Shown here in pieces: positions 2,026 through 10,044 of a stretch of 14,487 nt of DNA (its first letter is position 1; each line of letters begins with the position of its first letter). Position numbers and translations under genes: made by a program. This DNA is from Alphaproteobacteria bacterium (GTDB lineage: Bacteria; Pseudomonadota; Alphaproteobacteria; RF32; CAG-977): NCBI GenBank assembly GCA_017476085.1, contig JAFVEJ010000231.1, forward strand, positions 1-14,487, given 5' to 3'. The notes beneath the pieces are model-generated. The model saw only the letters and a list, made by a program, of their open reading frames with translations. It was not told the DNA's origin and did not search any database.

Positions 2026-3201
2026 ATGAAAAAAGCTGTTTTTTCCGCGATCTTATTCTCTGCAGCCAGCCTCTTATCTTTTCCCGCTTCAGCTACGACC
2101 GAAACTTTCGATCTGCCGATTGAATTGCAACTCGGCGGTTTTATGACATGGTACGGCACATACGGCAATCAGCGCAAAATGACAACGACAAATACCGGCC
2201 GGATTGTCGGTGAATATAACAATTTCGACCTGATGGGAGATGCAGAAATTTATTTTTCAGGAAAAACAAAATTACAAAACGGCGTTAAAATCGGCGCATT
2301 AATTCAGTTGAAAGCGGGAACGGATTCCGATACCAACAATCATGTCATTGACGAAACATATATGACCGTCGATTCAAAAATCGGACGCATTATCATCGGT
2401 AACACCAAAAACGTTTCCAAAAAAATGTCAATTATCGCCCCGTCCGTCAGCTCTCTCGGCGTTCAGGAAACGGATTTCAGACGTATTCTGATTGTTCCGG
2501 CCGGATTTGCTTATAACAAAGCGACGTATCCTCTGTTGGACAATATCTCGACAAAAATATCCTATATCACACCGACGTTTTCCGATTTGACTTTCGGCGT
2601 CAGTCTGATGCCAGGAAACAAAAACAAAGGAAAAGACAGTAATAACCTGTTAATTCCTGACGATGGCATTAAATTGTTCAAGTACGGTGTCGATGCCGCG
2701 GCATTATACGAACACGATTTCGACGGTTACAGCCTTTCCGCCAGCGCGACTTATACGGTCTATAAACCGAATTTGCAGGCGAACGCCATCCCCGGCAAAG
2801 AAAAAGACATCAAAGAATACGGCGGCGGTCTGAACATCGGAATCGGCAACTGGACGATCGGCGGTTCCTATCATTACACCAATATGTCTCAGGAAACAGC
2901 AGCGTTTTTAATTCCACGCGCCAACGTCGCCAAAGGCGCCGCCTGGGATGCGGGCGTCAAATTCACGGCGGGGCCGGTTGAAACCAGTGCCAACGTTTTG
3001 CAGTCCAGAGCCGACAGCTTGCTCGTCAACGGCAAAAAAGATATTTACACGCAATATCAGCTGTCCGGAAAGTATAATATCATAAAAGGAGTCAGCGCTT
3101 TTGCGGACTTGGGTTACATGTATTTCAGATCGGCTTCAAACAACCGCGCTTTAAGCAACAAAGGCCCCGTTGCCGCAGTCGGTATGAATTTGAATTTCTA
3201 A
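2026..3201 (+). CDS. Outer-membrane porin, paralogue 1
   Basis: A 391-residue outer-membrane beta-barrel protein, most likely a general trimeric porin of the Gram-negative porin superfamily (Porin_4-like). The N-terminus is a Sec signal peptide (MKKAVFSAILFSAASLLSFPASA) with probable cleavage after ASA at residue 23. The mature part opens with FDLPIELQLGGFMTWYGTYG and alternates short amphipathic strands with polar loops. It ends in GMNLNF, the C-terminal Phe expected for BAM-dependent insertion. It is a close paralogue of the next gene: roughly 70% identical by eye, with differences concentrated in loop-like segments such as residues 49-60 and 250-260. No good Shine-Dalgarno sequence precedes the ATG, unlike porin 2. 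The substrate is unknown. Confidence 0.88.
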   Translation: MKKAVFSAILFSAASLLSFPASATTETFDLPIELQLGGFMTWYGTYGNQRKMTTTNTGRIVGEYNNFDLMGDAEIYFSGKTKLQNGVKIGALIQLKAGTDSDTNNHVIDETYMTVDSKIGRIIIGNTKNVSKKMSIIAPSVSSLGVQETDFRRILIVPAGFAYNKATYPLLDNISTKISYITPTFSDLTFGVSLMPGNKNKGKDSNNLLIPDDGIKLFKYGVDAAALYEHDFDGYSLSASATYTVYKPNLQANAIPGKEKDIKEYGGGLNIGIGNWTIGGSYHYTNMSQETAAFLIPRANVAKGAAWDAGVKFTAGPVETSANVLQSRADSLLVNGKKDIYTQYQLSGKYNIIKGVSAFADLGYMYFRSASNNRALSNKGPVAAVGMNLNF

Positions 3202-3250
3202 AAGGACTTTATAAATACTTTAGAAAATTTGCAAACGATATCACCCTTTA

Positions 3251-3315
3251 TCCAGCTAATTTTCTATTTACAATTTTCATAGAATATATTTTACTAATCA
3301 CTCGTTCCACAACTA
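3251..3315 (+). promoter_or_regulatory. Upstream region of porin 2, copy of the porin 1 region
   Basis: Homologous to 1945-2007 base for base over most of its length, with TTTACA at 3267-3272. Relative to copy 1 it has two extra bases in the AT-rich spacer (AATATATTTTACT against AATATTTTACT), which disrupts the palindrome and would change promoter spacing. The second porin therefore probably has its own promoter. I saw no hairpin followed by a T-run between the two porins. Confidence 0.42.
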
Positions 3316-3333
3316 AAAATCAGGAATATTTTA

Positions 3334-4539
3334 ATGAAAAAGCATCTTTTTTCCGCGGTTTTGTTTTCTGCAGCCACCGCTTTGTCTTTTCCCGTCGCAG
3401 CCCAAACGAAGGCAACGGTTGAAGCTTTTGATCAGCCGATCGAGTTACAATTGGGCGGATATATGACATGGTACGGCACTTACGGCAACCAGCATAAAAA
3501 TACTCAGACCGTCTCAGGCACTAATGTCGGCGAATATAATAACTTTGACCTGATGGGAAATGCAGAAATCTACTTTTCCGGCAAAACAAAATTACAAAAC
3601 GGCGTTGAAATCGGCGCAATGGTTCAATTAAAAGCCGGAACGGATCCCGATACATCCAATCATGTGATTGACGAAACATATATGACGATTGATTCAAAAA
3701 TCGGCCGGATTATTGCCGGAAACGTCAAAAACGTTTCCAACCAGATGTCCGTCACCGCTCCGTCGGTCAGCACCCTCGGCGAACAGGAAACCGACTTTAC
3801 ACGCGTTTTAGCCGTTCCCCGCCGCTTTTCTTATAACAAAGCGACATATGCTTTATTGGACGACATATCAACCAAACTTTCCTATATCACGCCAACGGTT
3901 TCGGATTTCACTTTCGGTATCAGTCTGATGCCCGGAAATAAAACCAAAGGCAAAGACAGCAATACGTTGCTCATTCCCAACGACGGAATCAAGCTGTTTA
4001 AATACGGAGCGGATGCCGCGGCATTGTATGAACACGATTTCGGCAAATTCAATCTTTCCGCCAGCGCGACTTACACGATTTACAAACCCAACCTGCATGC
4101 AAACGCAACACTTGTTCCCGCCGCTGCCTTTATAAAAGAAAAAAATATTAAAGAATACGGTGCAGGCGTAAATGTCGGCATCGGCAACTGGACGGTCGGC
4201 GGATCTTATCACTACACCAATATGTCTATGAACACCGCAACCTTTATGAATCCGTATGCCAATGTCGCAAAAGGTGCCGCTTGGGATATCGGCGTCAAAT
4301 ATACGGCAGGTCCCTTTGAAACCAGCGCTACCGTTTTGCAGTCCAGAGCGGAAAGTATAAATGTCAACGGCAAAAAAGATATTTATACGCAATATCAACT
4401 TTCCGGAAAGTATAATATCATAAAAGGCATCAGCGCCTTTATGGACTTGGCCTATTTGAATTTTGATTCGGCATCCGCCAACAAAAGTTTAAGTAACAAA
4501 GGCCCCGCAGTCGCTATCGGTATGAATCTGAATTTCTAA
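3334..4539 (+). CDS. Outer-membrane porin, paralogue 2
   Basis: A 401-residue porin-like beta-barrel with the same architecture as its upstream neighbour. The signal peptide is MKKHLFSAVLFSAATALSFPVAA with likely cleavage after VAA (residue 23). The mature start carries FDQPIELQLGGYMTWYGTYG, and long conserved stretches include YNNFDLMG, AEIYFSGKTKLQNGV and SYHYTNMS. It also ends in GMNLNF. It is about ten residues longer than paralogue 1, with an insertion near HANATLVPAAAFIKEK (about 259-274) that probably lies in a surface loop. An AGGA ribosome-binding site precedes the ATG by about 8 bases. Tandem duplication is clear; whether the two copies differ in substrate or expression cannot be read from sequence. 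Confidence 0.88.
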   Translation: MKKHLFSAVLFSAATALSFPVAAQTKATVEAFDQPIELQLGGYMTWYGTYGNQHKNTQTVSGTNVGEYNNFDLMGNAEIYFSGKTKLQNGVEIGAMVQLKAGTDPDTSNHVIDETYMTIDSKIGRIIAGNVKNVSNQMSVTAPSVSTLGEQETDFTRVLAVPRRFSYNKATYALLDDISTKLSYITPTVSDFTFGISLMPGNKTKGKDSNTLLIPNDGIKLFKYGADAAALYEHDFGKFNLSASATYTIYKPNLHANATLVPAAAFIKEKNIKEYGAGVNVGIGNWTVGGSYHYTNMSMNTATFMNPYANVAKGAAWDIGVKYTAGPFETSATVLQSRAESINVNGKKDIYTQYQLSGKYNIIKGISAFMDLAYLNFDSASANKSLSNKGPAVAIGMNLNF

Positions 4540-9213: not shown

Positions 9214-9774
9214 CTATCTTTCCCGAACAACTGTTATTTCATAATCGCCTCCGTATTTATAAAGCAAAATACAAGCCCGTCTTTGTCCGTCAATGACAAC
9301 ATTGTTTCTGTTTAAAGCGATAATTGATTTGGAAAGATCGTAACCGTTTTCGTTTATAGAAGCCTCCAGCTTGTTAAAATCGGAAAGATATTTTTCCAGC
9401 TCGCTTTCAGACGGCCGATTGTCTGAAGAAAAATGTTTGAGAATATAAGAGATATAAATATCTTTATCCCGTTTTTCCAAATACTTAAAAGGACTGACAT
9501 CCCTTAATGCATATATTTTTCCTTTCCATATTCTGCGAATATCTTTCAGAGCAATTTTTACAAGCTCTGTTTCACCGAAAAGCAATGCGTCTTCCGGTAA
9601 AGTAATGTTTTGCATTTTAAGACGTTGTTTTAATTGTTCATGGTTTTGCCATTTGTACATTTCCCGAATCATATATTTGTAATTACGGACTTGAAATTTC
9701 ATCCCTAAGACAGAGTAAATCTTCTGAAATTTGCTTTTCTGAACCGAAAAAAGTTTGTTAAAAAATTTTCCCAT
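9214..9774 (-). CDS. Orphan protein with ParB-like C-terminus and a glycan-enzyme-type N-terminal tail
   Basis: A 186-residue protein I cannot name. The N-terminus FFNKLFSVQKSKFQKIYSVLGMKFQVR (4-30) resembles the tail that begins many surface-polysaccharide proteins (FxKIFSxxN...xVIxILGIKxKFK). The C-terminus IIALNRNNVVIDGQRRACILLYKYGGDYEITVV (151-183) resembles ParB/sulfiredoxin-like domains, with DGQRR at 162-166. The middle is charged and helical. No signal peptide or membrane span is seen. The ATG at 9774 is chosen over a TTG at 9807 because the TTG codon is itself transcribed only if the upstream terminator is read through, and AAGGA lies 11 bases before the ATG. It interrupts the usual prs-rplY adjacency. 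Function is unknown. Confidence 0.68.
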   Translation of the reverse strand: MGKFFNKLFSVQKSKFQKIYSVLGMKFQVRNYKYMIREMYKWQNHEQLKQRLKMQNITLPEDALLFGETELVKIALKDIRRIWKGKIYALRDVSPFKYLEKRDKDIYISYILKHFSSDNRPSESELEKYLSDFNKLEASINENGYDLSKSIIALNRNNVVIDGQRRACILLYKYGGDYEITVVRER

Positions 9775-9801
9775 TTTCTGAACATTCCTTACGTTAAAGA
9801 T

Positions 9802-9830
9802 AAACAAAACCTACCTTTTCAAAAGGTAGG
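9802..9830 (-). terminator. Rho-independent terminator of the structured RNA
   Basis: On the minus strand CCTACCTT, loop TTGAA, AAGGTAGG (9830-9810) forms a perfect 8-bp stem, followed by TTTTGTTT (9809-9802). It closes the structured RNA at 9839-9972 and sits 28 bases before the ParB-like start codon, so it either ends an independent RNA or acts as an attenuator for that gene. Confidence 0.8.
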
Positions 9831-9838
9831 CGGATGTT

Positions 9839-9972
9839 CAGAAACCGTATACACATTTACGGCTCGACCTATTGGGCAGACAGCCGTATTCAGCCGACAT
9901 CCGCCCGTAAGCAGAAGCCGGCATAAAAATTAAAGTCGCTATGCGAGGCGACTATGTGTAAAAGGGTTTCTG
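9839..9972 (-). ncRNA. Unidentified structured RNA: four-way junction with kissing loops
   Basis: Helices on the minus strand: P1 9972-9965 with 9846-9839 (CAGAAACC/GGTTTCTG); P1b 9960-9954 with 9856-9850 (TACACAT/ATGTGTA); P2 9953-9948 with 9939-9934; P3 9922-9917 with 9898-9893; P4 9888-9882 with 9864-9858 (TACGGCT/AGCCGTA). Loop 3 (GGGCGGA, 9906-9900) can pair with loop 4 (TCTGCCC, 9880-9874). P3 and the kissing helix each contain a G-U pair that would be an A-C mismatch on the plus strand, which favours minus-strand transcription; so does the terminator just downstream. It is not recognisable to me as 6S, tmRNA, RNase P, SRP RNA or a known riboswitch. True ends are uncertain: the 5' end lies between about 10010 and 9973, and the 3' end at the terminator near 9802. 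Confidence 0.55.
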
Positions 9973-10012
9973 ACGCCCTGAACCCTGAAAAAGAGTTCCT
10001 TTTAAGGATAAT

Positions 10013-10044
10013 AAAAAAAGCCGCTGTTTCCAACGGCTTTTTTT
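10013..10044 (-). terminator. Rho-independent terminator after prs
   Basis: On the minus strand GCCGTTG, tetraloop GAAA, CAGCGGC (10037-10020) forms a 7-bp stem with one U-G pair and a GNRA loop, followed by seven T residues. It lies about 23 bases after the prs stop. On the plus strand the stem would contain a C-A mismatch but is also followed by T residues, so weak bidirectional use is possible. Confidence 0.88.

Follow-up and report, generated by a model that had tools for sequence, protein, structure and literature searches.

A predicted riboswitch-like 5′ leader RNA of a dispersed bacterial family related to sRNA-Xcc1

Riboswitches with translational or terminator platforms are 5′ leaders that combine a conserved core with alternative pairings and control of the SD. 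The C4 antisense RNA (RF01695) of phages, such as phage P1, is a leader RNA that precedes antirepressor genes and is complementary to the start of the gene behind it.

A third RNA, sRNA-Xcc1 (RF02221), is described here from the accessible parts of the cited papers. It was named, assigned predicted targets, cloned, and detected as a discrete RNA of ~100 nt on a Northern blot (PMC2996969), which counts against a pure leader. The integrons of Xanthomonas carry sRNA-Xcc1 in front of symE, with the same facing for both, against the cassette promoter, and the authors already proposed regulation of symE by this RNA (PMC12444791). Xylella has seven homologues, with transcripts for all seven (PMC12189769), and one Aeromonas salmonicida genome has 15 copies (PMC8780938). 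A table row for E. coli EDL933 assigns high read counts to sRNA-Xcc1 (PMC5331693), in columns whose meaning lies outside the accessible part; the coordinate given there has no match in NZ_CP008957. In two other papers, the accessible parts carry sRNA-Xcc1 in the reference list only (PMC8876359 and PMC4909258). Within this accessible literature, to which subscription papers do not belong, no description as a leader or riboswitch was found.

The RNA analyzed here is located in a stretch of 14,487 nucleotides from an alphaproteobacterial contig, referred to as the window. We consider it probable, from sequence comparison, that this RNA is a cis-acting, riboswitch-like 5′ leader that works as an on/off switch for the gene that follows.

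Fold of the window RNA and of its copies

The minus strand of the window at 9800–10010 folds with an energy of −84.5 kcal/mol and a z-score of −7.2, which is equaled by 0 of 200 shuffles. The opposite strand folds more weakly, with a z-score of −5.1 and likewise 0 of 200 shuffles. The RNA extends from about 9998 to 9802 on the minus strand, and its features are listed in Table 1. The first-pass annotation had placed a structured RNA on this strand, and both the folding energy and the covariation described below support it. The annotation located the RNA between prs and a ‘ParB-like’ gene. The RNA is better described as the putative leader of this second gene, whose SD/start region repeats the P1 5′ strand, than as merely intergenic between two genes, and the label ‘ParB-like’ lacks Pfam support. 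The terminator noted after the RNA was found again as a terminator-like hairpin. Promoter prediction called no minus-strand promoter in the window, which counts against the leader reading. Elsewhere in the window, positions 2026–4539 contain two tandem, similar porin genes, the first assigned to Porin_4 by Pfam and the second by eye.

Table 1. Features of the leader RNA and the following gene in the window
Feature	Position	Strand	Basis or remark
Possible −10 element TATTAT	10008..10013	−	Read from sequence only; within the prs terminator tail
P0, 5′ hairpin of variable sequence, GAACUCU/AGGGUUC	9980..9998	−	Read from sequence
Leader RNA core (R1/R2/R3 match)	9829..9979	−	152.8 bits with R1 and 148.6 bits with R2, the window copy itself being among the model-building sequences
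H1 hairpin, AGGG/CCCU, with the P1 5′ strand in its loop	9963..9979	−	Pair counts
P1 5′ strand UCAGAAACC, partner 9838–9846	9965..9973	−	Pair counts and tree-aware test
P1 3′ strand GGUUUCUGA, alternative partner of the SD/start region	9838..9846	−	Covariation and start-region complementarity
P1b 5′ strand, partner 9850–9856	9954..9960	−	Pair counts
P1b 3′ strand	9850..9856	−	Pair counts
P2 hairpin; loop GCAUA (9944–9940) with UAUGC (9925–9921) forms PK2	9934..9953	−	Pair counts and permutation
P3 hairpin; basal strand 9897–9893 also pairs with 9868–9864 (P4 base)	9893..9922	−	Pair counts
PK1 5′ strand GGCGGAUG, 3′ side of P3	9898..9905	−	Permutation test
PK1 3′ strand CAUCCGCC, also anti-SD	9829..9836	−	Permutation, pair counts and start-region complementarity
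P4, internal loop AAUA/AAUA, candidate recognition site	9864..9897	−	Basal-helix pair counts; role inferred
P6, GCCGU/ACGGU, around the P1b 3′ strand	9845..9862	−	Pair counts
Terminator-like hairpin, overlapping the end of PK1	9809..9831	−	Terminator prediction and copy comparison
SD/start region GGAATGTTCAGAAA, mimicking the P1 5′ strand	9775..9788	−	Complementarity and mimicry tests
186-aa gene behind the leader	9217..9774	−	No Pfam family above cut-off; ‘ParB-like’ is the first-pass label

Relatives of the locus were located through the nearby rplY gene, giving 11 loci from Alphaproteobacteria MAGs, several of them from rumen or faeces according to their titles. The prs gene is present in nine of these loci, and one of the nine (L006) contains the RNA, again preceding a homolog of the 186-aa gene of the window. 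In L018 and L092, too, RNA copies precede genes whose proteins appear similar on visual inspection, so the RNA and the gene seem to travel together. A search of whole genomes detected copies in 10 of the 11 relatives’ genomes (E ≤ 0.01), including 21 and 22 copies in two of them. The window RNA thus reads as a member of a dispersed family of predicted 5′ leaders and not as a lone structure.

Three models, R1, R2, and R3, were built in turn from 26, 76, and 63 sequences. R1 matched 17 of 191 relatives (E ≤ 1e-3). Within the order, R2 found matches in 10 of 12 genomes; counting fragments, G006 (2.2 Mb) has 25 and G005 has 22. It also matched one of two genomes in the order of G177. Even draws were made across the class, where R2 matched 26 of 385 genomes, and across the phylum, where R3 matched 13 of 398 (both at E ≤ 1e-4, with seven candidates scored per genome); these two counts include weak single matches, not all of which were checked singly. 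R3 also matched the single genome in the order of G112. An exact 19-base pattern had 0 matches in viral contigs.

Covariation was assessed in 63 copies with our own script in the manner of R-scape, using a tree-preserving null and 60 simulated alignments. Significant covarying pairs are found in P1, P1b, P2, the base of P3, and the base of P4. The alignment was fitted to P1, P1b, P2, and P3, and was not fitted to H1, P6, PK1, or the P4 base. P1 and P1b are paired in 97.9% and 97.4% of cells, respectively, with changes on both sides at all seven tested pairs of P1 and at seven of seven pairs of P1b. P2 is paired in 95.3%. H1 is paired in 91.4% of cells, with both-side changes at two of four pairs, and P6 in 91.2%, with both-side changes at four of four. 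For the counts of these five helices the covariation score is 0.665, compared with 0.172 after shuffling. Pairing amounts to 92.4% in the P3 base, 70% in the P3 tip, 90.4% in the P4 base, and 89% in PK1. The fold thus appears conserved and covarying in the way of riboswitches. A hairpin at the position of P0 is visible by eye in other copies. H1, P1, and P6 have bases in common, and a single joint fold is therefore only tentative.

The P3 and P4 bases share one strand, 9897–9893, which pairs class-wide with 9864–9868. One pair of each base is significant in the tree-aware test. Because this strand covaries with partners in both helices, P3 and P4 may alternate. In addition, A9889, A9873, and A9872 are unpaired yet conserved.

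These data modify the five-helix fold of the first-pass annotation. P1, P1b, P2, and the P3 base exist and covary significantly among homologs, but P4 as drawn there contains no significant covarying pair in the tree-aware test. The annotation also joined the loops of P3 and P4 in a kissing interaction. The complementarity is present in the window sequence, but the 63 copies pair in 63.8% versus 63.1% for shuffled columns, a level reached by 141 of 500 shuffles, and the interaction was rejected.

According to the copy comparison, the partner of the P3 loop strand is the sequence just after P1, and the two form a pseudoknot (PK1) that was not drawn in the annotation. In a register-free test, the mean longest run is 8.4 for strands of the same copy and 5.5 for crossed strands, with 0 of 10,000 permutations as high, and a run of at least 6 bp is present in 61 of the 63 copies. 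The paired strands are GGCGGAUG:CAUCCGCC in the window, GCCGGAGG:CCUCCGGC in L162, and GACCGGAAG:CUUCCGGUC in L172. The PK1 column pair 180–278 reaches only an E of 0.13 in the tree-aware test; the register-free test is preferred because the alignment probably shifts at this column pair. Outer GGGC:GCC pairs predicted by RNAalifold conflict with PK1 and were excluded from R2 for this reason. A second pseudoknot, PK2, is supported between the P2 loop and the strand 5′ of P3. Its score is 5.08 for strands of the same copy and 4.25 for permuted strands (0 of 20,000), and the run is at least 4 in 54 of 63 copies. Such permutation tests leave shared ancestry in, a point partly answered by the wide range of PK1 types and by the subset with 55 distinct flanks.

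Some copies are interrupted. In L072 (12288–13812), L073, L074, L076, and L075, the RNA breaks off directly behind the P1 3′ strand. In four of these copies the position of PK1 and the terminator is taken by a P4-type integrase gene; L075, the fifth, has a similar break. Both observations count against the switch proposal. Pfam assigns Arm-DNA-bind_3 and Phage_int_SAM_3 to the first 147 residues of one integrase. Further genes in these islands look by eye like abortive-infection or type I restriction genes. A pattern search for a displaced RNA 3′ end found none on the contigs carrying these islands. The leader seems to be used as an integration site. In L129 (4452–4728), L091 (1807–1961), and L190 (1–140), the copies are split by a palindromic insert, AGAGAGTTGCAACTCTCT..., which seems to be shared by all three and resembles a small mobile repeat.

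An element dispersed before accessory genes, carried by integron cassettes in the case of sRNA-Xcc1 (PMC12444791, accessible part), and followed directly by an integrase gene in four truncated copies could act in DNA as an attachment site for the spread of genes and only incidentally resemble an RNA. We regard this as very improbable in view of the RNA-type covariation, the constant orientation to the gene, and the start-region complementarity specific to each copy. The replacement of the PK1 strand in the integrase copies also gives the impression of a site that is exploited, not built for recombination.

Gene position and complementarity to the start region

At 118 of 131 places, a start codon with its SD lies 25–75 nt past the core; when 16 left-out loci are restored, the count is 124 of 150 places. 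The loci left out of the 131 are integrase-linked, interrupted, cut by a contig end, or poorly aligned, together with L126, which has an intact RNA and a start 107 nt away; the duplicates L218, L227, and L239 are counted once. At the remaining 13 places (26 of 150 with the left-out loci), the rule used identifies no start, which counts against the leader reading. Judged by position only, the RNA lies in the 5′ untranslated region, as riboswitches do.

A promoter-like motif resembling TTTGNTA stands upstream of 54 of 80 copies, compared with 5.5 expected, and lies 34–42 nt before the core in 52 of these 54. On the downstream side, a hairpin of at least 6 bp followed by a U-tract is found in 89 of 126 distinct stretches, compared with 3 after shuffling. 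These hairpins begin at a median of 3 nt inside the PK1 strand. In 37 of the 126 stretches a clear terminator is absent by the rule applied, which counts against the proposal.

The P1 3′ strand and the anti-SD together make up the last 20 nt of the core. Complementarity of this segment to the SD/start region of its own copy scores 16.6, versus 13.2 for other copies (97 distinct pairs, 0 of 20,000 permutations). With one copy per distinct flank, the scores are 14.8 and 12.4 (55 pairs, 0 of 20,000). The anti-SD pairings include CUUCC/GGAAG in L172 and L188, CACCC/GGGUG in L167, and CACCCC/GGGGUG in L176. Weak pairing with a score of at most 9 is seen in 4 of 55 (L173, L177, L178, and L180), and counts against the proposal. 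The start region also repeats the P1 5′ strand, with a score of 5.66 versus 5.12 in 130 distinct copies (0 of 20,000), a small effect; the mimicry score is at background in many distant copies, which likewise counts against. The P1 3′ strand thus has two partners, and its choice between them would expose or hide the SD. At the sequence level, competing complementarities exist for both the SD and the terminator.

A riboswitch-like leader was one of two options in the first-pass annotation, and it gains support from the covariation, the placement of the start codon, the upstream promoter-like motif, and the copy-specific complementarity. The other option, a stand-alone small RNA, is argued against by the position before genes.

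The same complementarity could have another use. The leader, once terminated or processed, would be a small RNA that pairs in cis or in trans with its own or sibling SDs in a C4-like, ligand-free manner. Phage copies precede antirepressor genes, as for the C4 RNA of phage P1. A discrete ~100-nt sRNA-Xcc1 and seven transcribed Xylella homologs (accessible parts of PMC2996969 and PMC12189769) would also suit such an antisense RNA. However, P2, P3, P4, P6, and PK2 are conserved and covary more than antisense pairing would require, and no C4 family matched the window up to an E of 5. Many copies in G005 and G006 moreover have the same P1 and start region, and action in trans would not be gene-specific. 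We therefore consider C4-like antisense control rather unlikely.

The genes behind the leaders are diverse. Among 30 downstream proteins searched with Pfam (E ≤ 0.01), families above cut-off include N6_N4_Mtase, PDDEXK_4, P22_AR_N, HTH_3 (two), HU family, TM2 (two), OMP_b-brl (three), PilS, Hexapep, PhyH, and DUF4268, as well as a probably spurious MSC match on a cysteine-rich repeat protein. Bro-N, Phage_pRha, GIY-YIG, and N_methyl are below cut-off, and six of the 30 have no Pfam family. By a crude rule, 60 of 113 downstream proteins would count as secreted or lipoproteins. Families of small paralogs have expanded within one genome, with a leader for each member, in G014 (L083, L084, and L182–L186) and in G300 (L162, L164, and L166). 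Secreted cysteine-rich repeat proteins lie behind the leaders of L104, L022, L033, and similar G005 and G006 copies, many near contig ends.

The scanned targets share no pathway, and the ligand is therefore not readable from them. A global RNA-binding protein that binds the pseudoknotted core and thereby exposes or masks the SD would suit many unrelated targets, among which are DNA-binding proteins (HTH_3 and HU family). No family is common to all 30 downstream proteins, making autogenous control unlikely, and we judge a protein-sensing leader improbable.

Kinship with sRNA-Xcc1 and phage copies

At curated cut-offs, Rfam, riboswitch families included, has no family in the window or in the copies of 17 loci. 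The statement in the first-pass annotation that the RNA matches no known family holds in this sense, and the covariance scan it proposed found no family at cut-off in the window. The statement does not extend to the 3′ half, which is a divergent relative of RF02221. This family matches the 3′ half of the window RNA with 28.3 bits and an E of 0.0046, below its gathering cut-off of 53 bits. Also below cut-off, STnc430 matches the plus strand and STnc40 the prs terminator hairpin, each with 28.4 bits, and the remaining matches in the window are mostly on this hairpin as well.

RF02221 is the counterpart of the 3′ half of the leader RNA. Its closing stem is equivalent to PK1, its middle hairpin to P4, and its last hairpin to P6; in the model alignment, the order of hairpins and the AAUA-type loops agree with the window. 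Both are multicopy, and RF02221 also precedes phage antirepressor genes. However, RF02221 spans only 87 positions, lacks H1, the 5′ strands of P1 and P1b, P2, and PK2, and has the Rfam type ‘Gene; sRNA’.

R3 was built from genomes of one class and does not include RF02221. Three of the 18 loci found with R3 score above the RF02221 cut-off (L206, 69.9; L209, 59.5; and L204, 53.5 bits), six score between 34.8 and 47.9 (L205, L176, L203, L208, L199, and L178), and the remaining nine have no RF02221 match at E ≤ 0.1. RF02221 yields matches with E ≤ 1e-3 in 11 of the 12 genomes chosen for this search and exceeds its cut-off in five of the 12, at nine places; R3 matches over its full length at seven of these nine, the exceptions being L214 and L224. 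G300 has 27 RF02221 matches, all below cut-off, and 14 named control genomes have none.

A search of phages with the L206 leader returned four records, which represent three distinct phages. RF02221 scores above its cut-off in all three (86.1, 78.1, and 79.7 bits), and the annotated genes ant, ant, and KilA-N start 38, 33, and 36 nt after the RNA, respectively, on the same strand. R3 run without filters scores 22.5, 18.4, and 11.3 bits in these phages, the last with an E of only 0.015. These low scores suggest that the 5′ half has drifted, although P1 and P1b are still readable. In Aaphi23, the repeat in the start region covers P1 and P1b and reaches into the SD. The phage relatives thus appear to follow the same logic through mimicry of P1 and P1b before antirepressor genes. 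In L206, a second RNA resembling c4-2 (2882–2950; 34.8 bits, cut-off 41) is located near the RNA that precedes an antirepressor gene.

Rfam and the Xanthomonas literature describe sRNA-Xcc1 as an independent, trans-acting small RNA, and its published name and predicted targets (accessible part of PMC2996969) accord with that description. Applied to the window family, a trans-acting RNA unrelated to the downstream gene is hardly credible. The position before genes is consistent, the start region is complementary, and the 5′ half, absent from the 87-nt model, accompanies the 3′ half at most places above the RF02221 cut-off.

Proposed switch and comparison with known systems

For the riboswitch-like leader, the observed helices, pseudoknots, leader position, start-region complementarity, and 3′-half kinship with sRNA-Xcc1 permit a mechanism to be proposed. 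A short promoter would start the transcript at hairpin P0. The core would then fold compactly into H1/P1, P1b, P2 with PK2, P3, P4, P6, and PK1, with the 3′ side of P3 capturing the sequence right after P1 to form PK1. A stable fold would keep the P1 3′ strand and the anti-SD occupied, weaken the base of the terminator through PK1, and leave the SD free and the gene on. An unstable fold would let the P1 3′ strand and the anti-SD pair with the SD/start region, where the P1 5′ strand is repeated; the terminator would then be complete and the gene off. The balance might be set by a signal; the likeliest candidate is a small molecule that binds close to the conserved AAUA/AAUA loop of P4. We infer the direction of the switch, the cooperation of termination and translation, and the small-molecule nature of the signal from this arrangement.

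On a wider scale, and tentatively, the family could constitute an unrecognized, very widespread class of ligand-responsive switches in Pseudomonadota and their phages, with up to ~25 copies per genome and with sRNA-Xcc1 as its 3′ half. The accessory genes under such a switch would encode surface proteins, lipoproteins, pilins, phage antirepressors, and restriction-modification and other DNA-acting proteins. If so, RF02221 would need approximately twice its length and reclassification from a small RNA to a cis-regulatory leader, and papers that treat sRNA-Xcc1 copies as virulence-linked small RNAs would deserve a second look. Control of dozens of unrelated genes, with surface, phage, and DNA-acting products, by one orphan switch would imply a shared signal for accessory genes, and a single signal might set expression levels across much of the mobile genome. 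The core would also provide a concrete candidate aptamer for ligand screening.

The window family resembles the C4 RNA in being a leader RNA complementary to the start of the following gene and in its association with antirepressor genes. It differs in its larger covarying core and in targets that include bacterial surface and other genes. As in riboswitches, the window RNA is a predicted 5′ leader with a pseudoknotted conserved core, a 3′ strand with two possible partners, and putative control of the SD. Unlike known riboswitches, it matches no Rfam riboswitch family at the curated cut-off, in the window or in the copies of 17 loci, and its scanned targets have no common pathway.
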